Source: Candidatus Poribacteria bacterium (GTDB lineage: Bacteria > Poribacteria > WGA-4E > WGA-3G). From it: DNA of 64,000 nt. This document shows, piece after piece, positions 25,718 through 36,598 of this stretch (positions are counted from its first letter, which is position 1; every line of letters begins with the position of its first letter). The stretch lies in NCBI GenBank assembly GCA_022821495.1, contig JAJEDN010000044.1, positions 47,353 to 111,352 of the forward strand, in the 5' to 3' direction. The notes beneath the pieces are model-generated. The model was not told the origin of the DNA and did not search any database. It worked only from the letters and a program-made list of their open reading frames with translations. A program made the translations under genes and the position numbers.

Positions 25718-28135
25718 ATGACCCCCGAAAACAGAGCCAGACGCAACATAGATAAAATGCTTGAAGCATCTGGATGGCACATCCAAAATTATGCTGAACG
25801 TGACACAGCTGCTGCGTTGGGTGTGGCCGTGCGTGAATATCGATTAAGAGCGGATCAGCGGGCGGATTATCTCCTCTTTATCGGTAGCGTTGCAGTTGGG
25901 GTTATTGAAGCCAAACCTGAAGGAACAACGCTTAGCGGTGCCTTGCAACAGGCAGAACGGTATCGAGCAAGTTTGCCAGATGATTTGCCAAACCGCACCA
26001 GATTTTTCTTTTCCTACGCCGCAACAGGAGTTGAGACCTACTTTCGGGATATTCGGGACCCAGATTCCCGTTCACGGCACGTTTTTACATTTCATACGCC
26101 TGAAGCACTTGCCAACGCTTTTTATCAACCCAGAACCTTGCGCGAGAGACTTAAAACGGATATACCGCGATTAGAAAAAGGTTCTCTGAGAGATTGTCAA
26201 TTTGGGGCAATAACCGAGCTTGAAAAATCGTTAGCAGAATCACGCCAGCGCGCTTTAATCCAAATGGCGACTGGCAGCGGAAAAACGCACGCCGCTGTCA
26301 GTAGCGCGTATCGACTCATTAAATTTACGGATGTCAAACGCGTGCTTTTTCTCGTAGACCGCAATAATCTTGGCAGGCAAACACTTCGCGAATTTCAGGC
26401 ATACACGACTCCCGATGACGGTAGAAAATTCACTGATCTCTATAATGTCCAGCACCTTTCGAGCAACATTATCGACGAAGCAAGTGCTGCCTGTATTACC
26501 ACTATCCAACGCCTCTATTCCATGCTAAAAGGTGACTCAGACTATGAATCGGAAGAGGAAGAGACCTCCGCCTTTGAAAATGATACTGAAGACGCTTCAC
26601 CACAGTTTGTTATCTATAACCCAGAAATTCCAATCGACACCTTCGATGTTATCATCGTTGACGAATGCCATCGCTCTATCTATGGTAAATGGCGACATGT
26701 GTTGGAATACTTTGACGCTTTCATTATCGGACTCACCGCAACACCATATAGACAAACGCTCGCTTTTTTCGATCACAATCTCGTTTACGAATACCGCCAC
26801 GAGCAAGCTATTGAGGATAATGTAAATGTCGGTTACTATATCTATCGGATTAAAACTGAAATCACACAAAGAGGGAGTAGTCTTGAAACAGGTAGTTATA
26901 TCGCAAGACGCGATAGGCGAAGTCGGCGACTTAACTGGGATGAATTGGATGCAGATGTTGAATATACCGGAAGCCAGTTAGATCGCGACGTTGTTGCTAT
27001 AAATCAAATCCGGACAGTAATCCAAACCTTCAAGGATAAGCTTTTCACCGATCTTTTTCCAAGTAGGCAAACCGTTCCTAAAACACTTATCTTTGCGAAA
27101 GATGACTCCCACGCCGAAGATATTGTTCACATTGTGCGGGATGTATTTGCCAAAGGTGATGATTTCTGCCAAAAGATTACGTACCAGAGTGACAGACCAG
27201 AGGAACTCATCAAAACATTTCGCACACAATTAAATCCGCGGATCGCCGTAAGTGTTGACATGATTTCTACCGGCACTGATATAAAACCGCTTGAGTGTTT
27301 GGTCTTTATGCGGGCAGTCCGATCCAGCGGCTATTTTGAGCAGATGGTTGGGCGCGGCGTGCGCGTCATCAGTCCTGACGATCTGAAAACCGTCACCGGC
27401 GATGCGACTACAAAAACGCATTTTTTCATCGTTGATGCCGTCGGTGTCTGTGAATCCGTAAAAATTGACTCACAATCACGCCCCGGTGAACCGCCTTCTA
27501 CTGATCCAGATGAACAGGAAGAAAGAGATCCTAACCAACTAATTGACGATATTAGTGAAGATCACGTTCTTGATACTGGATTTGAGCCCCAAAGTTTCAC
27601 ACAAGTGGCTGCAGTCATTCACGCCTTTAAACAGTTTATCGATGAAAATATAGATGAATTGATAGCGTTACAAATTTTGTGTAAACGTCCAGAGGTACAA
27701 GGGACATTGAACGAAAACAATTTGAAGGAACTGGAAGAAGCATTGCAGCAACATTCAAGGAGTCTGAGTCGCGAGTCATTATGGTTGGCTTACAAAAACC
27801 GGTCTCCAGAGAGTGTTCAAGGAAATATGGAACAACCTACAGACCTCATATCGCTGGTGCGATTTGCTATGGGGTACAATCTTTTCCTGGAGCCGTTTAG
27901 TGCAACTGTCAACCGAAATTTTGAAGAATGGTTAGATGATAAAGATTTTAACTCAGAGCAACATAAATGGCTTGAAATGATACGTGACCATATTGCCACC
28001 TCACTTGATATTCGGATGTCCGATTTTGAGTATACCCCGTTCGCGGAACTTGGGAATGGTGCGAAAGTCTACGAACTCTTTGGAGATGATTTAGACGACA
28101 TCCTAAAAGATCTCACAGAAAAATTGGTATCTTAG
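25718..28135 (+). CDS. hsdR: Type I restriction endonuclease subunit R (EcoEI-like HsdR)
   Basis: N-terminal RADYLLFIGSVAVGVIEAKPEG (PD-(D/E)XK), QMATGSGKTHAA Walker A, DVIIVDECHRSIYGKW (DECH), FEQMVGRGVRVISPDDL motif VI. Confidence 0.94.
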   Translation: MTPENRARRNIDKMLEASGWHIQNYAERDTAAALGVAVREYRLRADQRADYLLFIGSVAVGVIEAKPEGTTLSGALQQAERYRASLPDDLPNRTRFFFSYAATGVETYFRDIRDPDSRSRHVFTFHTPEALANAFYQPRTLRERLKTDIPRLEKGSLRDCQFGAITELEKSLAESRQRALIQMATGSGKTHAAVSSAYRLIKFTDVKRVLFLVDRNNLGRQTLREFQAYTTPDDGRKFTDLYNVQHLSSNIIDEASAACITTIQRLYSMLKGDSDYESEEEETSAFENDTEDASPQFVIYNPEIPIDTFDVIIVDECHRSIYGKWRHVLEYFDAFIIGLTATPYRQTLAFFDHNLVYEYRHEQAIEDNVNVGYYIYRIKTEITQRGSSLETGSYIARRDRRSRRLNWDELDADVEYTGSQLDRDVVAINQIRTVIQTFKDKLFTDLFPSRQTVPKTLIFAKDDSHAEDIVHIVRDVFAKGDDFCQKITYQSDRPEELIKTFRTQLNPRIAVSVDMISTGTDIKPLECLVFMRAVRSSGYFEQMVGRGVRVISPDDLKTVTGDATTKTHFFIVDAVGVCESVKIDSQSRPGEPPSTDPDEQEERDPNQLIDDISEDHVLDTGFEPQSFTQVAAVIHAFKQFIDENIDELIALQILCKRPEVQGTLNENNLKELEEALQQHSRSLSRESLWLAYKNRSPESVQGNMEQPTDLISLVRFAMGYNLFLEPFSATVNRNFEEWLDDKDFNSEQHKWLEMIRDHIATSLDIRMSDFEYTPFAELGNGAKVYELFGDDLDDILKDLTEKLVS

Positions 28136-28186
28136 CATCACTTTTGTAGGAGCGACCTCTGGTTGCGATTTGGAGATATTCAATTG

Positions 28187-28213
28187 TCTGAATCGCGGAT
28201 TACGCGGATTTTT
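28187..28213 (+). repeat. Dispersed repeat CTGAATCGCGGATT(G)ACGCGGATTT
   Basis: gtctgaatcgcggattacgcggatttt; related copy at 49266-49310. Confidence 0.7.
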
Positions 28214-28398
28214 TGTGTTTGGGTATCCCAAAATCGAAAGGTAATTTAGTGGGTTTTCGAGAGAATCGAATGCGTCTGGGTAGCGACTTAAAGCGGCTTG
28301 CATCTCAAGTCAACTTTGTGTTAAACTTTATAACGAATTTCCACCAAAGGTATTGTAATCTGTGCCAATTTCAAAACACGCCAGAAAGGGATTCGTAA

Positions 28399-29799
28399 AT
28401 GCCAACGCCAAAAGAAGTTTTTGATAATCCTCTACAATATCTTGATTTCCTACAGTCTGCTAATTTTGAAGGGCAGTATTTTGAACGAAAAGAGGTCCGC
28501 ATTGATACCAGCAATCAAATTAACACACTGAAGGACAAGATCAAACAGTGCATTTCTGCTTTCGCGAATAGCAACAGAGCAGGTGGTCTATTAATACTCG
28601 GCATCGCGGATGATGGCACCATTAAAGGCACACAGCATGTTGATGAACAGACACTCAATGGGATCCTGCAAGTGGCACGAGATTTAAGTAACCACGCAAC
28701 ACAATTAGAAGAAGTCATACTGCCGAATTCAGATAAAAAAAAATTACATCTTCTTTACACCCCGTGGACACCAAATGGGATTTGTGAAACCTTCGCAGAT
28801 TCTCCGAAAGCATGGAAAAGGTTTGGGGCACAGTGTTTGCTCCTACGACGAATTGACGAGGAACAATTGAGACGGGATAAAGGAATCATTGACTTTGAAA
28901 AATCTCCCTGCTGTTCCTACAATCCCGACGAACTTGATAAAGAGGTGGTTGACGAGTTCAAACGTGAATTCCTCGCGGTAAGAGGTGCCCAATACGAATA
29001 TAGCACAGAGGCGTTTCTCTTGAACATAGATGCTATTAGGCAAATAGAGGGTGAAAAGTGCGTTTTCACCAATGCCGGTTACCTCTTTTTTGCTTCAAAT
29101 CCACGTAAAGAGTTTCCAAGTGCACATGTTCGAGTTTTACGTTTTGAAGTTGACGTTGAGGCATCAGGTGCGCGTGGTGCAACGACCTTTGATAAAGAGT
29201 TCGATGGAGCACTTCCAAACATTATCCGTAAACTACGAACCTTTTTCAGAGATTCTGCCCTTTTTCGGACGATGATAAGACGGAGTGCTAACGGTGGATT
29301 CATTGAAGACCCTGAATATCCACTCTTGGCGGTTGATGAGGCAGTCTTAAACGCTGTTATTCATAGAGATTATGGGGCCAACGCTGCGATTCATTGCATT
29401 GCGTATCGGAATGGTTTGGTGGTAGAAAATCCGGGCGGTATCCCTCAGGAAGTCCCACGACACTTTAGTCTGGCGGATACAGTCCTGAGTTCGGTGCTGC
29501 GAAATCATAAGATTGTTGAATGGATGCGCTTTATGAAAGATGAACGTGGTGAACCTCTGGTACGTGCTTTAAGTGAAGGCACAAGAAAAATGCGTCAAGA
29601 AATGGAAAACCTCGGTCTACCAGCACCGGATTATGAAACAACTCAAAATACCGCCGTCACACTTTATAATCACTTTGAGGAGCGATTGGCACCACACGCC
29701 GCTTACACCTCTACATCCAAGCCTGAAACACCGCCTGAACAGGGCAGCGTAAAAAAGGCACTGCGTTCCATCGGCGAACGTCTCGCTAAAATCGAATAA
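28399..29799 (+). CDS. AlbA_2/Schlafen-type ATP-binding (RecG-like C-terminal) regulator
   Basis: EGQYFERKEVRID...CISAFANSNRAGGLLILGIADDGTIKGTQH (AlbA_2); AVDEAVLNAVIHRDYGANAAIHCIAYRNGLVVENPGGIP (HATPase_c_4-like). Confidence 0.88.
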   Translation: MPTPKEVFDNPLQYLDFLQSANFEGQYFERKEVRIDTSNQINTLKDKIKQCISAFANSNRAGGLLILGIADDGTIKGTQHVDEQTLNGILQVARDLSNHATQLEEVILPNSDKKKLHLLYTPWTPNGICETFADSPKAWKRFGAQCLLLRRIDEEQLRRDKGIIDFEKSPCCSYNPDELDKEVVDEFKREFLAVRGAQYEYSTEAFLLNIDAIRQIEGEKCVFTNAGYLFFASNPRKEFPSAHVRVLRFEVDVEASGARGATTFDKEFDGALPNIIRKLRTFFRDSALFRTMIRRSANGGFIEDPEYPLLAVDEAVLNAVIHRDYGANAAIHCIAYRNGLVVENPGGIPQEVPRHFSLADTVLSSVLRNHKIVEWMRFMKDERGEPLVRALSEGTRKMRQEMENLGLPAPDYETTQNTAVTLYNHFEERLAPHAAYTSTSKPETPPEQGSVKKALRSIGERLAKIE

Positions 29800-29809
29800 A
29801 AGGAAACAG

Positions 29810-31249
29810 ATGAGCAAAATGAATCAAAAGGATTTGCCACTGAATTGGCGGATCGTAAGATTTGGGGAGGTGGCAACATTTACCAAAAAGCCAAAAGACT
29901 TGCGATATTCTGAGTATAACGAAGTCCCGTTTGTGCCGATGAAATTGATTCCAATTGCCACATTATTTTTTACGGAATTTATACTCAAGTCAACCGATGA
30001 ACTCAGTAGCGGAACTTATTTTGAACCCGGGGATATCCTTCTCGCTAAAATCACACCGTCTTTTGAAAATGGTAAACAGAGTATAATTGAAGATTTGCCA
30101 ACGCCATTTGGTGTTGCAACAACTGAGGTAATTCCGATTCGTGAAGTTGAAGAGGTTAGTGATAAATTCTATCTTTTCTATTATTTGTTACTTCCTGATA
30201 TCCGTGCTTTGCTTACATCACGCATGAAAGGAACAACCGGAAGACTAAGATTAGGGACAGAAGCCCTTGCTAACTTAGAAATCCCACTGCCGCCGCTGGC
30301 AGAGCAACGCCGTATCGTAGCCAAGTTAGAGGTGCTGTTTACACAATTAGATACAGCAGTTGATAGTCTCAAAGAAGCACAAGTGCAGTTGGAACGGTAT
30401 CGTAGATCAATCCTCAAAGCTGCTTTTGAAGGAAAATTGACAACGGAATGGCGCGAAGGATATTCCGGCGCACTTGAACCGATGTCGGTTTCAGAAGATT
30501 CTACTCCCAACAGTTTATCTGAGCTACCTAATGGTTGGATGTGCACGACATTAGCAAATTGTGCAGATATTTTAGATAATCAACGAGTCCCAATAAATGC
30601 AAAAGAACGGGAAACGAGGATAAACGGTAAACTTGAGCCAGAACTCTATCCATACTATGGTGCAACTGGACAAGTTGGCTGGATTGACGATTACTTATTT
30701 GATGAAGAACTCGTTTTATTAGGGGAAGATGGTGCTCCTTTTCTGGACGTTTTAAAAGACACGGCATATCTTGTTAAAGGCAAAAGTTGGGTAAACAACC
30801 ATGCTCACGTCTTGAGAGCAGAAAGGGGTGTTACGTCAAATCAATTTTTATGTCATTATCTAAACACATTCGACTACCACGGTTACTTAACAGGAACAAC
30901 AAGGTTAAAACTCAATCAGTCAACAATGCGAAAAATACCTGTTCCGCTTCCATCCCTTCCTGAGCAGAAACAGATTGTCTTTGAAATTGAGGCTCACCTT
31001 TCAGTCACCGGTGAAATTGAAGCGACCCTTGATGCTGAACTTAAACGCGCGGAACGTTTGCGGCAGTCTATTCTCAAGCAAGCGTTTTCTGGTAAACTTG
31101 TGCCACAAGACCCGAATGATGAACCGGCAAGTGTCCTATTGGAGAAAATTCGAGACGAGAAAGGACATCAGCAACCGAAGCGAAAAAAGACTATACCAAA
31201 ATCACAAACAACTTCTTCGGCAGAACAAATGTCGCTTCCACTCGACTAA
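29810..31249 (+). CDS. hsdS: Type I restriction-modification specificity subunit S
   Basis: Two target-recognition halves, each followed by conserved helices: LPPLAEQRRIVAKLEVLFTQLDTAVDSLKEAQVQLERYRRSILKAAFEGKL and LPSLPEQKQIVFEIEAHLSVTGEIEATLDAELKRAERLRQSILKQAFSGKL. Confidence 0.96.
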   Translation: MSKMNQKDLPLNWRIVRFGEVATFTKKPKDLRYSEYNEVPFVPMKLIPIATLFFTEFILKSTDELSSGTYFEPGDILLAKITPSFENGKQSIIEDLPTPFGVATTEVIPIREVEEVSDKFYLFYYLLLPDIRALLTSRMKGTTGRLRLGTEALANLEIPLPPLAEQRRIVAKLEVLFTQLDTAVDSLKEAQVQLERYRRSILKAAFEGKLTTEWREGYSGALEPMSVSEDSTPNSLSELPNGWMCTTLANCADILDNQRVPINAKERETRINGKLEPELYPYYGATGQVGWIDDYLFDEELVLLGEDGAPFLDVLKDTAYLVKGKSWVNNHAHVLRAERGVTSNQFLCHYLNTFDYHGYLTGTTRLKLNQSTMRKIPVPLPSLPEQKQIVFEIEAHLSVTGEIEATLDAELKRAERLRQSILKQAFSGKLVPQDPNDEPASVLLEKIRDEKGHQQPKRKKTIPKSQTTSSAEQMSLPLD

Positions 31250-31277
31250 GGAACTATTATTAACCCAGCTTGCCACC

Positions 31278-31366
31278 TGTTTATACACATAGCACTCCGC
31301 TGGAGTGCAAGAGTTGAATACACCATTTTCTATAGACATTTTACCCCTCTGGGGTGGGGAAGTGTC
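31278..31366. repeat. Two degenerate REP-like units
   Basis: cacatagcactccgctggagtgcaagag and tctatagacattttacccctctggggtggggaag have the same layout as the units at 44.3-44.7 kb (TCTAYAGA-N-CCCCTNNGGGG). Confidence 0.55.
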
Positions 31367-31421
31367 TGAAAAACTGTGTTGAAACGCTCAAAATCTGTTA
31401 GTAGCAACTTGGATTATTATT

Positions 31422-31718
31422 ATGACGCAAGATGAAATACAAAACAACACGGATGAATCCGAGGAAACGCAGGAGACTGATCCGCTTCTTGCCTTAGCCG
31501 GAACATTGCAATGGGACATAGATGAAATAAAAACGCGACTCCGTACCTATAAGCGACCAGAGATACGTGTGGTTGAAGGTGCATACAAAGACCATCCGGA
31601 TCCGCTCATTGCTTTAGCGGGGACGTTGGAATGTGATGCGACTGACATCGGTGAACGCCACGATGACTATATTGCAGCCGCTTTGTTGGCAGAATTATGC
31701 GGAGATGAGGATGAATAA
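31422..31718 (+). CDS. Antitoxin-like small acidic protein with internal duplication
   Basis: DPLLALAGTLQWDIDEI and DPLIALAGTLECDATDIGERHDDYI are tandem copies of one motif. Confidence 0.7.
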   Translation: MTQDEIQNNTDESEETQETDPLLALAGTLQWDIDEIKTRLRTYKRPEIRVVEGAYKDHPDPLIALAGTLECDATDIGERHDDYIAAALLAELCGDEDE

Positions 31719-31810
31719 CACGAGGTGAGTTGTAGCGAAATGGTATTGAATCTAATAAAGCATCATGCTAAAATATGAAATAACCCTCAAATTTTGATAG
31801 GTGATACACT

Positions 31811-32233
31811 ATGAAAACCTTACAAGATAACTTTGATCCGCTCTTGCTGCCAGCAGACAGGTCGCTATTGAGGAAACATATCCAACGCGAACTGGATGAA
31901 ATCCGCGAGGAAGTCGAGGAAACCTGTAAAGTGGATAGCGACGTTAGGCCTGTCCCACAACAAGCTTATGACGAAACCTCCACTTTGCTGAAGCGAATAT
32001 CTCCTGCTATTCCAATGCCGGACCTGATGTGGTTGGAAGATGGCGGGATTGGGTTAGAATGGAGATCCGGTGATGGTATTATTACGATGAGCCTATATGG
32101 CGACGATCATGTTAACTTCGTTGTCGTTTTAGATGATCAGCATGAGATTGCGGGGACTTGTCCGTTATCAGATCCGCTTTTACTCCCTAATTTTCTAACA
32201 ATATTACCTGAGCTTTTCCAACGAAGGACATGA
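31811..32233 (+). CDS. Hypothetical protein, first gene of a two-gene accessory module
   Basis: 140-aa ORF; paralog-like to 25264..25665; stop overlaps the next gene's start region. Confidence 0.72.
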   Translation: MKTLQDNFDPLLLPADRSLLRKHIQRELDEIREEVEETCKVDSDVRPVPQQAYDETSTLLKRISPAIPMPDLMWLEDGGIGLEWRSGDGIITMSLYGDDHVNFVVVLDDQHEIAGTCPLSDPLLLPNFLTILPELFQRRT

Positions 32234-32234
32234 T

Positions 32235-32648
32235 GTGGACGATATTTTACAAGACGAAATTCTCACCCGCTTTATTTTTTCTTCCAGACACTTCACTCGT
32301 AGAAACGAGACAATAAAATTTGGTGCATTTATGCCGCCTTACGCCAGTAAAGATCCACCTTTATATAGCCCAGATATTTCTGTTTACCGTTTATCAGGGC
32401 TCTCAGATAACGAAAAATGGACGATTGGTCGGGAATATGTCCAAACAGAGGGTAGATCCATAAAAGCAAGAGCCGATCTTCCGGTGCGAGAAGTTTACAG
32501 GAATAAGCTAAAGGTTATATCAGATACGCAACCTCATGAAAGACATGCCAACATAACACCGTTTCCTTCTGATAGATTAGCATGTCAGAGGTTGGCGACT
32601 AAACTTGCGCGTGCCAGTAAATTAGTCATTCCACCCGAAGATGTCTAA
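32235..32648 (+). CDS. Hypothetical protein, second gene of the two-gene module (GTG start)
   Basis: RFIFSSRHFTRRNETIKFGAFMPPY...SVYRLSGLSDNEKWTIG...KARADLPV...ERHANITPFPSDRLACQRLATKLARAS; looks like a widespread uncharacterised family (from memory). Confidence 0.72.
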   Translation: MDDILQDEILTRFIFSSRHFTRRNETIKFGAFMPPYASKDPPLYSPDISVYRLSGLSDNEKWTIGREYVQTEGRSIKARADLPVREVYRNKLKVISDTQPHERHANITPFPSDRLACQRLATKLARASKLVIPPEDV

Positions 32649-32716
32649 CTTCAAACCAAAATCATACCACACGTGCCCAATGTGCCTTTTAGTCCATTCA
32701 TCCTTGAGGTAAATTC

Positions 32717-34183
32717 ATGCCTAACGAATCCGCAACGATTGTCCAAAAACTCTGGAATTTCTGTAACGTTCTCCGAGATGATGGCGTCAGTTACGGCGAT
32801 TACGTCGAACAACTCACCTATCTGCTATTTCTTAAACTTGCTGACGAACAGACGAAACCGCCTTTGAACAAACCTGCAACAATTCCCGCAGGTTTGGATT
32901 GGGAGAGTTTACTCAACGCAAGTGGTGCCGAGTTGGAGACCCAGTATATCAAAATCCTGCGAGAACTAAGTAATGAACAAGGCTTACTCGGTGTGATATT
33001 CCAGAAGTCGCAAAACCGCATTCAGACCCCCGCGAGTCTTCAACGCCTGATTCATCTCATCAACGACGAAAATTGGAGCGGGATGACTGCTGACATCAAA
33101 GGGACGATCTACGAAGGACTTCTACAGAAAAACGCCGAAGATACGAAAAGCGGTGCAGGTCAGTATTTCACACCACGTCCCCTTATTAAGGCGATGGTGA
33201 CCGTGATGCGTCCCGAACCGATGCAAACTATCTGTGATCCGGCGTGCGGGACGGGTGGTTTTTTTCTTGCTGCACACGACTACATTTCCGAAAATTATAG
33301 CAGTGGAATGGATCGCGAACAGAAGGATTTCCTTAGATTTAACACCTTCGCTGGCACAGACATCGTTGATAACGTTGTACGCCTCTGTGTGATGAATCTC
33401 TATCTACACGGTATCGGTGGAACGGAAAGTCCAATTACAACTGACGATAGCCTCATGAGTGATACAAGTGATCGCTATGACATAGTGCTTACCAATCCGC
33501 CATTCGGGAATAGGAGTAGCATTACAATCATTACCAATGGCGGTAAACGCAGCAATACATCACTTACTTATGAACGCGACGATTTCTGGGCAACCACTTC
33601 AAATAAACAGTTCAATTTCCTCCAACACATTAAGACGATTCTGAAAACAGATGGGCGCGCCGCTGTCGTTCTGCCAGATAATGTCCTCTTTGAACGCGGC
33701 GCAGGCGAAACGATCCGTCAGCAACTGCTCAAACAATTTGATGTCCACACCCTCTTGCGATTACCAACCGGTATCTTCTACGCCCAAGGTGTCAAGGCAA
33801 ACGTGCTCTTTTTTGATAAGAAACCGGCGCGCGAAGAACCGTGGACACAAAAACTTTGGATTTACGACCTACGGACAAATAAAAACTTCACACTCAAAAC
33901 AAACCCACTGACAGATACCGATCTGCGAGATTTTATAACTGTCTACAATCCAGATAACCGCGACGCGCGGACTGAGACCGAGCGATTTCGTGCTTTCAGT
34001 TATGAAGAACTTATCGAACGCGAGCATGTCAACCTTGACATCTTCTGGCTCAAAGATGGGTCGTCTGAGGATGCCGCAGACCTTCCCGCTCCAAATGTAT
34101 TAGTGGCAGAAATCACTGAGAATTTAGAGGCTGCATTAGCACAATTTCAGAACATCCAAGCAGAATTAGACAGTAACGATTAA
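32717..34183 (+). CDS. hsdM: Type I restriction-modification N6-adenine methyltransferase subunit M
   Basis: LWNFCNVLRDDGVSYGDYVEQLTYLLFLKLADE...GQYFTPRPLIKAMV...DPACGTGGFFLAAHDY...DIVLTNPPFG. Confidence 0.97.
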   Translation: MPNESATIVQKLWNFCNVLRDDGVSYGDYVEQLTYLLFLKLADEQTKPPLNKPATIPAGLDWESLLNASGAELETQYIKILRELSNEQGLLGVIFQKSQNRIQTPASLQRLIHLINDENWSGMTADIKGTIYEGLLQKNAEDTKSGAGQYFTPRPLIKAMVTVMRPEPMQTICDPACGTGGFFLAAHDYISENYSSGMDREQKDFLRFNTFAGTDIVDNVVRLCVMNLYLHGIGGTESPITTDDSLMSDTSDRYDIVLTNPPFGNRSSITIITNGGKRSNTSLTYERDDFWATTSNKQFNFLQHIKTILKTDGRAAVVLPDNVLFERGAGETIRQQLLKQFDVHTLLRLPTGIFYAQGVKANVLFFDKKPAREEPWTQKLWIYDLRTNKNFTLKTNPLTDTDLRDFITVYNPDNRDARTETERFRAFSYEELIEREHVNLDIFWLKDGSSEDAADLPAPNVLVAEITENLEAALAQFQNIQAELDSND

Positions 34184-36598
34184 ATGAAGACACATATTCT
34201 TGAAAACTTACTCGGTTGTGAAATAGAAGATACACTTGCGGCGATTTCTGCTGATACCGCTGAGCTTGAAATTTTTCTCTCCACACTTTCACCAGATACC
34301 CTTGAACACCATCTCACACCCCAATGGGTCGTGCTTGCTGCGGGTAAAGGGACACGGATTGATCCCACCGGACGCTTGAGCAAAACGCTGGACATCACCT
34401 TCGGGGAGCAGAACACACTCCAACACTCGCGACGCTATCTGCCCGGCAACCGTCCGGATATTGTTGTTATCAACCCACAGATGGCATCGCGGATCGAGAA
34501 AAGCGCATCTGCGGAACGGCTGCTGGGTCCGAACACTATCCAATGTATTCAGGAAGAGATGAACGGTACGGGTGGTGCGTTGCGAGCAGCATTGCCCGCA
34601 CTCCAAGACTCCGATGCTGAATGGATCGGTGTGGCGTTCGGTGACGAACCGTTTTTACAACGTGAGATTTTCGCACAGACACTACTCTCCCATTTTCTGT
34701 CTGGTGCGGATGTTACGCTCTGCGGGAAAATTCCCGAAACAGTCGTGGATAAGGGCGGACTTTTCTTTGATGCTGAAGGAAAACTCACGGGAACCAAAGA
34801 GTGGTACGATATGACGGAAGCAGAACAACAGGAGATGTGGGATCGCTTGCGCCGCGGTGAAGCATACACGAACACAGGTATTACACTCATTCGGAAAAGC
34901 GCGTTGTTAGATCGGATACATCGGTTGGGACCGCATGCAAATCGGAACGACGAACTCCATCACGTTGATCTGATCCGCCACTGTTATGAAGACGGGTTGA
35001 AAACAAATGCCTTCATCTATCGCGGTGACGTGTTGTCTGGGGTTAACCGCTGGTCGAATGTTCTATCAGGTGAAGCGGCACTGTTTGCTCAGGTACGGGA
35101 ATCCCTCGCACGAAAAGGCGTTCGCGTCGATCCTAATGCACAAATAACATTGGCAGGTGATGATGTTGAGATGGGTACGGCGTGCTATCTCATCGGTAGG
35201 GTACATCTCGGTGAAAAGGTGCGGATCGGAGATTATTGTAGGCTCGAAAATGTTACGCTGCTTGGGGCAACAACGGTAGGCGATGGCATCGGATTGCAAG
35301 ATGTCTCCGCGAACGATACGATATTTGAATCGAATCCGATCCCAGAAACATTGTCTGAACCCGTCCGTGGACTTGCGACAGGTAGCACAATTAAAAATTC
35401 CACATTCGATGCAGCGAGCGTGGGCAGTGGTGTTCAACTTTCAGCGATTGTTGCGCGCGGAACAGTGATCCCATCTGGTATCACTTTGACGCATCAAACG
35501 TTCGGTGTTCCACCCGCAGAAGCACCGCCTGCAGTACCGAAGTCGCTTTTTAATCAGATCGTGCCACCGGAATACAGTCCTGGCGTTTTTACTTTTGGAG
35601 AGAAAAAGGAACTGCCCGATTGGGAAAACCTCCGTCAACATGTTCAAACACACAGTGCTGCAGAACTCATCCCGCGTGCGACGAGCGATCCCGACTTACA
35701 ACAGGTTGTGTGTGATGCTGTCCAAACACTCTTGGATCTACGACGCGCAAATTCTGATTATCTGATTGAAGCCCTCACGCCTGAAGAGTTGTGGGGAAGT
35801 ATCTTTGAGATGGTAGGTCTCCATACTGGCAATCCAAACCCTTACCGCAGTGATAAACTCAAGGCGCGACAGACTGCGCTCGACCTACTCTCGGATTTTT
35901 GGGAAGACAGCTGGCAGACGCGTTTGAAGTTAGTCGTCGCTGGGAATATTATTGATTACAGCAGCGCGCGGGTCGTAAATAAACTCAACGCGAACCCTGA
36001 GTACTTTTCTGAGGCACTGCGGGCAGCAGTCGAAATACCTTTCGCTATTGATTGTTATGAACAGTTTTATGAAAAAGTCATTGATGGCGCGCCGCAGCAG
36101 ATTCTCTGGCTCGCTGATAACGACGGAGAAGTGATTTTTGATATTGCCTTCGTTCAGGAACTTGTTCAATACGGGCACCAAATCATTGTGGTTGGAAAAG
36201 TGGATAATGCCAGCAATGATGTAACGCTTGCCGATCTACACGAAATAACGGGTTACCCACAATTTCAAGAACTCCGGGAAGCGATTCGGGACGGTGTTGT
36301 TCAGCTGATTTCGTCAGGTGCGAAAACGATTGGCACCAACCTCTATCAGGCAACACCGGAATTTGTGAATGCGCTGTTGGAAACTGACCTCGTTATTTCA
36401 AAGGGACAGGGAAATTTCTATACCACGCCGGGTTGGGCAAAGGATACCTTTTATCTATTGCTTTCAAAGGGTTTAACAGCGGAACAGAGTACGGGTGTTG
36501 TCGCGGATCGAAGTCTGCCGATTGATGGGATGATTTTGGCTTACCTTCCGGGTGGAACAAAACGGGTTGCGCCGCTCAACGACCTGTGTTTATCGTAG
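34184..36598 (+). CDS. Predicted fusion: GlmU-like nucleotidyltransferase + left-handed beta-helix + DUF89 (ARMT1-like damage-control phosphatase)
   Basis: N-terminal WVVLAAGKGTRIDPTGRLSKTLDI...GTGGALRAALPAL...VAFGDEPFL; middle hexapeptide-like IGRVHLGEKVRIGDYCRLENVTLLGATTVGDG; C-terminal VVAGNIIDYSSA...ILWLADNDGEVIFDIAFVQEL...LVISKGQGNFYT (DUF89 motifs). Confidence 0.85.
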   Translation: MKTHILENLLGCEIEDTLAAISADTAELEIFLSTLSPDTLEHHLTPQWVVLAAGKGTRIDPTGRLSKTLDITFGEQNTLQHSRRYLPGNRPDIVVINPQMASRIEKSASAERLLGPNTIQCIQEEMNGTGGALRAALPALQDSDAEWIGVAFGDEPFLQREIFAQTLLSHFLSGADVTLCGKIPETVVDKGGLFFDAEGKLTGTKEWYDMTEAEQQEMWDRLRRGEAYTNTGITLIRKSALLDRIHRLGPHANRNDELHHVDLIRHCYEDGLKTNAFIYRGDVLSGVNRWSNVLSGEAALFAQVRESLARKGVRVDPNAQITLAGDDVEMGTACYLIGRVHLGEKVRIGDYCRLENVTLLGATTVGDGIGLQDVSANDTIFESNPIPETLSEPVRGLATGSTIKNSTFDAASVGSGVQLSAIVARGTVIPSGITLTHQTFGVPPAEAPPAVPKSLFNQIVPPEYSPGVFTFGEKKELPDWENLRQHVQTHSAAELIPRATSDPDLQQVVCDAVQTLLDLRRANSDYLIEALTPEELWGSIFEMVGLHTGNPNPYRSDKLKARQTALDLLSDFWEDSWQTRLKLVVAGNIIDYSSARVVNKLNANPEYFSEALRAAVEIPFAIDCYEQFYEKVIDGAPQQILWLADNDGEVIFDIAFVQELVQYGHQIIVVGKVDNASNDVTLADLHEITGYPQFQELREAIRDGVVQLISSGAKTIGTNLYQATPEFVNALLETDLVISKGQGNFYTTPGWAKDTFYLLLSKGLTAEQSTGVVADRSLPIDGMILAYLPGGTKRVAPLNDLCLS

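Follow-up and report, generated by a model that had tools for sequence, protein, structure and literature searches.

A GlmU-type nucleotidyltransferase fused to a DUF89 phosphatase domain in the Poribacteria, encoded beside hexosamine genes in basal families

DUF89 phosphatases are, to our knowledge, widespread, and few of them have a defined physiological substrate in bacteria. A preference for fructose-1-phosphate is reported for DUF89 proteins of yeast and human (PMC8669784); sugar phosphates are therefore plausible substrates of the family. In PANK4, which joins DUF89 to a (pseudo)kinase of CoA synthesis, the DUF89 domain holds the pathway back by removing phosphate from one of its intermediates; two aspartates (D623 and D659) have been shown to be essential (PMC9352595). 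In hexosamine metabolism, GlmR (YvcK) binds UDP-GlcNAc, and a stimulation of GlmS by GlmR has been proposed for Bacillus (PMC7525490); it has accessory uridyltransferase activity in Listeria (PMC10128056). No paper joining GlmU and DUF89 was found in the literature searched; an apparent match (PMC2701414) concerns DUF891. Each domain of the protein described here is known by itself; within the literature searched, the combination, its conservation across the phylum and its setting among hexosamine genes are undescribed.

The window, a stretch of 64,000 nucleotides, comes from a poribacterial MAG. It contains a single intact ORF (P0001; Table 1) that combines a GlmU-like half with a DUF89 half. 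A first-pass annotation, made from the sequence alone, had given the position, length and motifs of this ORF exactly, as well as the zero gap between the hsdM stop codon and the ATG at 34184. Its assignment of NTP_transferase and DUF89 domains to one ORF is confirmed by HMM domain parsing, which places both above gathering score. No frameshift separates two genes: in species at 40-90% identity, one reading frame runs uninterrupted through both domains; an assembly chimera is likewise ruled out by open frames in many genomes, single-contig assemblies included.

Table 1. The fusion gene, its parts and the adjoining methyltransferase gene, in window coordinates
Feature	Position	Strand	Basis
Fusion gene, complete, 804 aa (P0001)	34184..36598	+	Frame open in related genomes; matches in 83/86 poribacterial genomes
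Residues 1-46, short helical N-terminal extension, least conserved	34184..34321	+	AlphaFold helices 2-10, 14-21, 26-34, 40-44
Residues 47-300, GlmU-N-type nucleotidyltransferase	34322..35083	+	Pfam, NCBIfam, Foldseek GlmU, invariant residues
Nucleotidyltransferase motifs	LAAGKGTR 34334-34357; GDEPF 34640-34654; GVN 35039-35047	+	
Residues 310-445, short degenerate left-handed beta-helix without acetyltransferase active site	35111..35518	+	glmU models end ~306-330; low pLDDT
Residues 446-538, linker and DUF89 helical cap	35519..35797	+	Aligns with PH1575 from residue 30 on
Residues 539-790, DUF89/ARMT1 phosphatase core	35798..36553	+	Pfam PF01937, Foldseek PH1575, conserved residues
DUF89 motifs	DNDGE 36116-36130; ND 36215-36220; KGQGN 36401-36415	+	
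hsdM-like DNA methyltransferase adjoining 5' side of fusion	32717..34183	+	NCBIfam hsdM / MAD2-like

The N-terminal extension (17-28% identity in other families) precedes the nucleotidyltransferase half, which is matched by the Pfam models NTP_transf_3 (residues 49-178, E 1.5e-8) and NTP_transferase (49-244), both above gathering score. The NCBIfam glmU model aligns GlmU 4-306 with fusion residues 49-365 at 79.7 bits, against an equivalog cut-off of 366.85; the archaeal GlmU model TIGR03992 gives 31 bits against a cut-off of 292, over model positions 3-290 of 393. The E. coli GlmU residues R18, K25, Q76, T82, D105, E154, N169 and N227, which we take to have the roles usually assigned to them, align with R58, K67, Q123, T129, D154, E206, N230 and N288 of the fusion. 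All are invariant among the fusions that cover them, except T129 (31 of 33). Q79, Y197 and T199 of E. coli GlmU correspond to M126, H259 and V261; given these changes, the sugar specificity of the fusion may differ from that of the E. coli enzyme. A nucleotidyltransferase role for this half is well supported.

In the second half, the ARMT1-like family PF01937 is found at residues 539-746 (E 2.9e-33, 115.8 bits against a cut-off of 25); the NCBIfam damage-control equivalog scores far under its cut-off (82 against 440 bits). Every intact fusion retains N588, D591, D645, N646, D679, K740, Q742 and N744. Judging by motif position, D645 and D679 probably correspond to the essential PANK4 aspartates.

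AlphaFold2, run with a 36-row alignment, gives a mean pLDDT of 82.7 and a pTM of 0.59, at which the model does not fix the mutual placing of the domains. The nucleotidyltransferase and DUF89 parts are predicted confidently; residues 320-440 are not, and most blocks of the beta-helix region have a pLDDT of 36-61. The beta-helix of the first-pass annotation holds in part: a helix is present, but it is short, the acetyltransferase half of GlmU is absent and the Pfam hexapeptide models match weakly, under cut-off. In Foldseek searches of the PDB, the best matches of the first half are all GlmU structures, UDP-GlcNAc complexes among them (top match 3d98, E 2.5e-17; E. coli GlmU 1fxj, TM 0.70 by target). 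The second half matches PH1575 (2g8l, E 1.3e-15, TM 0.81 by target), AF1104 and At2g17340. GlmU and DUF89 are returned as separate matches of the same model.

Every relative found is poribacterial. The fusion protein is matched in 83 of 86 poribacterial genomes, most of which hold the full-length fusion once; there is no match in G066 (81% complete), G074 (96% complete) or G056. In G060 and G061, the two lineages that branch deepest, only a stand-alone DUF89 occurs. G054 encodes a distant 704-aa nucleotidyltransferase/beta-helix protein (L101_4) which has no DUF89 and shares an EWxDMT signature with the fusion; this gene (L101 2938-5049) is possibly a pre-fusion form. A family profile search of 153 non-poribacterial genomes found only stand-alone DUF89 proteins, mostly of about 280-330 aa and without a GlmU-like half. 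A scan of genome contigs, which detects close relatives only, likewise found the fusion in Poribacteria only. Most likely, the fusion arose inside the phylum, at class level, and was then inherited vertically; its restriction to Poribacteria refers to the sample of 86 poribacterial and 153 other genomes.

In other phyla, stand-alone DUF89 genes (L139-L158) are frequently found close to genes for Mrp/NUBPL Fe-S carrier ATPases, ferredoxin domains and DUF5320. Hexosamine genes are not among the commonest neighbour families of stand-alone DUF89 in these 20 genomes, which give no substrate clue.

The gene neighbourhood in the basal families f5 and f7 points to hexosamine metabolism. The gene directly 5' of the fusion is yvcK/glmR in all seven fusion-bearing genomes (G051, G053, G055, G057, G058, G059 and G062); glmM precedes yvcK in five of them, and nagB lies directly 3' of the fusion in five. 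In G058, archaeal-type GlmM (455 bits, cut-off 439), YvcK (308, cut-off 196), NagB (243, cut-off 237) and GlgC (453, cut-off 425) all score above cut-off. The order glmM-yvcK-fusion-nagB is a GlcN/UDP-GlcNAc (hexosamine) operon. Conservation of glmM-yvcK as a pair extends throughout the class, source genome included (C115); in family f4 the pair is followed by glmS as third gene.

A canonical GlmU above the glmU cut-off is found in none of the 86 poribacterial genomes, compared with 9 of 14 control genomes. In the source genome and most others, no protein matches the glmU model better than the fusion. Since lpxA and lpxC-fabZ are present in the source genome, UDP-GlcNAc must be made despite the absence of GlmU. 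GlmS occurs in 12 of the 86 genomes and NagB in 74; the two are almost mutually exclusive (GlmS only, 11; both, 1; NagB only, 73; neither, 1), in counts that follow a few clades and are not independent events. This suggests that most sponge-associated lineages use NagB in reverse, or amino sugars salvaged from the host, in place of GlmS. The nagB gene of the source genome is at G000:C59:25837-26586.

Acetylation has its own genes in some lineages. G036 and G039 encode, 14 bp behind glmS, a GlmU-C-like beta-helix protein of 225 aa that has no nucleotidyltransferase domain; G038 has a similar protein directly 5' of glmS. The acetyl and uridyl steps therefore lie on separate genes, and the closest GlmU-N relative in these three genomes is the fusion. 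These proteins of 225-232 aa, in effect a split GlmU acetyltransferase, are at L112 3902-4576, L113 3556-4251 and L114 3081-3755. No acetyltransferase was found beside glmM-yvcK-glmS in genus g5 of family f4.

The source genome and most others encode an ST0452-like protein of about 464 aa (G000:C24:41651-42949; L070 487-1881), which has a full beta-helix and its own nucleotidyltransferase domain. It carries GxGRK or GxGTK in place of GxGTR, the arginine being usually lysine, and may be mainly an acetyltransferase. It is also the main competitor for the uridyl step: its presence in most genomes speaks against the fusion as sole synthase, and the fusion need not be the only source of UDP-GlcNAc.

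On balance, we consider it somewhat probable that in this phylum the fusion acts as the GlcNAc-1-P (HexNAc-1-P) uridyltransferase, tethered to a sugar-phosphate phosphatase of the same pathway in the manner of PANK4. GlcN-6-P would come from GlmS, from reversed NagB or from salvage, and GlmM would convert glucosamine-6-P to glucosamine-1-P. Acetylation would be carried out by a separate protein: the GlmU-C type beside glmS in some families, the ST0452-like 464-aa protein in others, including the source genome. Uridylation would fall to the N-terminal half of the fusion, derived from the uridyltransferase domain of GlmU; we infer UTP and GlcNAc-1-P as its substrates. The DUF89 half would be an active metal-dependent phosphatase acting on a surplus or wrong sugar-phosphate intermediate. 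By analogy with PANK4, it may serve as an overflow valve or a control of product purity, and its substrate and its overflow or repair role are proposed on this basis. Points that count against this reading are the ST0452-like protein with its own nucleotidyltransferase domain, the uridyltransferase activity of GlmR in Listeria, the changed residues M126, H259 and V261, the absence of the fusion from G066 and G074, the loss of DUF89 catalytic residues in G052 and G053, and the stand-alone DUF89 genes, which lie near Mrp/NUBPL and ferredoxin genes instead of hexosamine genes.

The first-pass annotation had proposed a sugar-nucleotide synthase fused to DUF89, with built-in product repair or a novel nucleotide-sugar pathway, and a possible link to the adjacent R-M system. 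The first part is supported in that the fusion is real and phylum-wide, keeps the catalytic residues of both halves and, in basal families, lies in a hexosamine operon; product repair would be one possible job of the phosphatase, and the R-M link falls away. The data indicate UDP-GlcNAc synthesis without canonical GlmU, and for the most part without GlmS, across an entire uncultured phylum. The class-wide fusion and the basal hexosamine operon narrow the search for the DUF89 substrate to a handful of assayable sugar phosphates. A fuller scheme is tentative: a split-GlmU pathway in which reversed NagB mostly replaces GlmS, acetylation takes place on a separate beta-helix protein and the DUF89-tethered uridyl enzyme is a working part. 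If true, it would be the first defined role for DUF89 in nucleotide-sugar synthesis.

The ST0452-like protein also underlies an alternative that we regard as unlikely, in which it makes UDP-GlcNAc, and the fusion makes another UDP-sugar (e.g. UDP-GalNAc) or controls a side branch. This would fit a protein that is nearly as widespread as the fusion and has a complete beta-helix acetyltransferase part, and it would fit the changed sugar-site residues M126, H259 and V261. However, the search of the glmS-bearing families f2 and f4 gave a full-length ST0452-like protein in G050 alone, and no GlmU-N relative there is closer than the fusion. The usual replacement of the GxGTR arginine by lysine in the ST0452-like protein and the placing of the fusion in a GlcN/UDP-GlcNAc operon also argue against this alternative.

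The remaining functional alternatives concern the DUF89 half, which has eroded in two lineages. In L087_7 (G052) and L088_3 (G053) the nucleotidyltransferase is kept, with 59 and 66% identity to the window protein; DUF89 is shortened, with DNxGE destroyed and 34 and 28% identity. The equivalents of the essential aspartates are gone in L087 and partly gone in L088. The phosphatase is thus dispensable at least in these two genomes, and an accessory function fits this erosion better than an obligate step. It therefore weighs against a two-step enzyme, in which DUF89 would remove a phosphate from a sugar bisphosphate (e.g. hexosamine-1,6-bisphosphate) and the first half would activate the resulting sugar-1-phosphate. 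Heptose-1,7-bisphosphate phosphatase, which feeds ADP-heptose synthesis, is a model for such an arrangement. Conservation of both active sites together throughout the class, retention of the fusion across many genera and the presence in the same operon of glmM, a bisphosphate-using mutase, are consistent with it. However, glmM already supplies the sugar-1-phosphate; a stand-alone DUF89 could substitute in G052 (L095), and none was found in G053. We consider the two-step enzyme improbable.

The same erosion could mean that only the nucleotidyltransferase half matters and that DUF89 persists as a remnant with a structural or regulatory part to play (oligomerisation, metabolite sensing); the nucleotidyltransferase half is the most conserved part of the fusion in nearly all comparisons. 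In every other fusion, however, the metal- and phosphate-binding residues of DUF89 are kept over class-level divergence, which is unlike a remnant. A remnant is accordingly doubtful, and an accessory phosphatase beside the uridyltransferase is preferred.

On its 5' side, the fusion adjoins a type I-like R-M island (window 25718-34183), composed of hsdR (EcoAI-like), a 466-aa protein for which no NCBIfam match was found, hsdS, three small ORFs and an hsdM that is MAD2-like in NCBIfam. Pairs of small ORFs of about 130-190 aa recur at window 31811-32648 and among the upstream ORFs of relatives, in two clusters. This region on the 5' side of the fusion is a hotspot whose cargo differs from relative to relative.

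The earlier suggestion of co-translation with the R-M system does not survive comparison. Among 34 loci with an upstream ORF, hsdM is directly 5' of the fusion in 10 (nine abutting, one overlapping by the stop codon). Other families have different neighbours; whole families of the phylum have no R-M genes at the fusion locus, and hsdM, hsdS and hsdR show no conserved co-occurrence with it. Within the genus, the downstream genes (AMP-dependent ligase, sulfatase and others, on the opposite strand) are conserved, and it is the upstream side that varies. At several loci hsdM does not abut the fusion, yet its last 20-75 bases remain ahead of the fusion ATG. Such hsdM 3'-end relics form the fusion leader at L033, L037, L043, L044, L047, L049, L058, L062 and L064; some consist of only the last 20-odd bases. 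In the rest of the relatives the gene begins some 14 codons earlier, with MNSD.. or MKSD.., and in most cases a GGAG precedes this start. We read this pattern as a single R-M insertion in one subclade which would have replaced the gene's own leader and native start, with losses afterwards. The reading frames abut because this is the scar of an insertion; given the relics and the variable upstream side, the R-M genes therefore have no functional link to the fusion. R-M linkage was rejected on the 34 loci and about 20 deeper relatives.

The idea that the fusion belongs to the adjacent R-M/defence island, as a nucleotide- or sugar-modifying defence enzyme, draws on the contact with hsdM in the window and nine further loci and on the MAD2-like type of this hsdM, but is refuted by the 24 of 34 loci without hsdM directly upstream, the families without R-M genes there and the relics, which record later loss of hsdM without loss of the fusion.

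Compared with GlmU, the fusion has the Rossmann-like uridyltransferase domain, all catalytic and Mg-binding residues and the first beta-helix coils; the GxGTR...K signature and the metal-binding Asp and Asn (D105 and N227 in E. coli) are represented by the invariant R58, K67, D154 and N288. It differs in having DUF89 instead of the C-terminal acetyltransferase beta-helix (the profile ends at about 306-330), in its score (80 bits against a cut-off of 367) and in three changed sugar- or uracil-site residues. With ST0452, the archaeal GlmU-like protein of Sulfolobus tokodaii, it shares the character of a sugar-1-phosphate nucleotidyltransferase in hexosamine synthesis, and a homologue of ST0452 occurs in the same genomes; the fusion is nevertheless a separate lineage, with 31 bits in the archaeal GlmU model and no acetyltransferase part.

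The second half resembles PH1575 and other ARMT1-like DUF89 proteins in fold (TM 0.81), in its DNxGE, ND and KGQGN motifs and in a Pfam score above gathering; unlike them, it misses about 30 N-terminal residues with CxPC and sits behind a nucleotidyltransferase. In PANK4 the partner of DUF89 is a pseudo-pantothenate kinase of the CoA pathway, whereas in the fusion it is a nucleotidyltransferase, probably of the hexosamine pathway, that looks active. The two are alike in that DUF89 is tethered to a present or former enzyme of one pathway and takes its substrate from that pathway in PANK4 (PMC9352595), as it would in the fusion.
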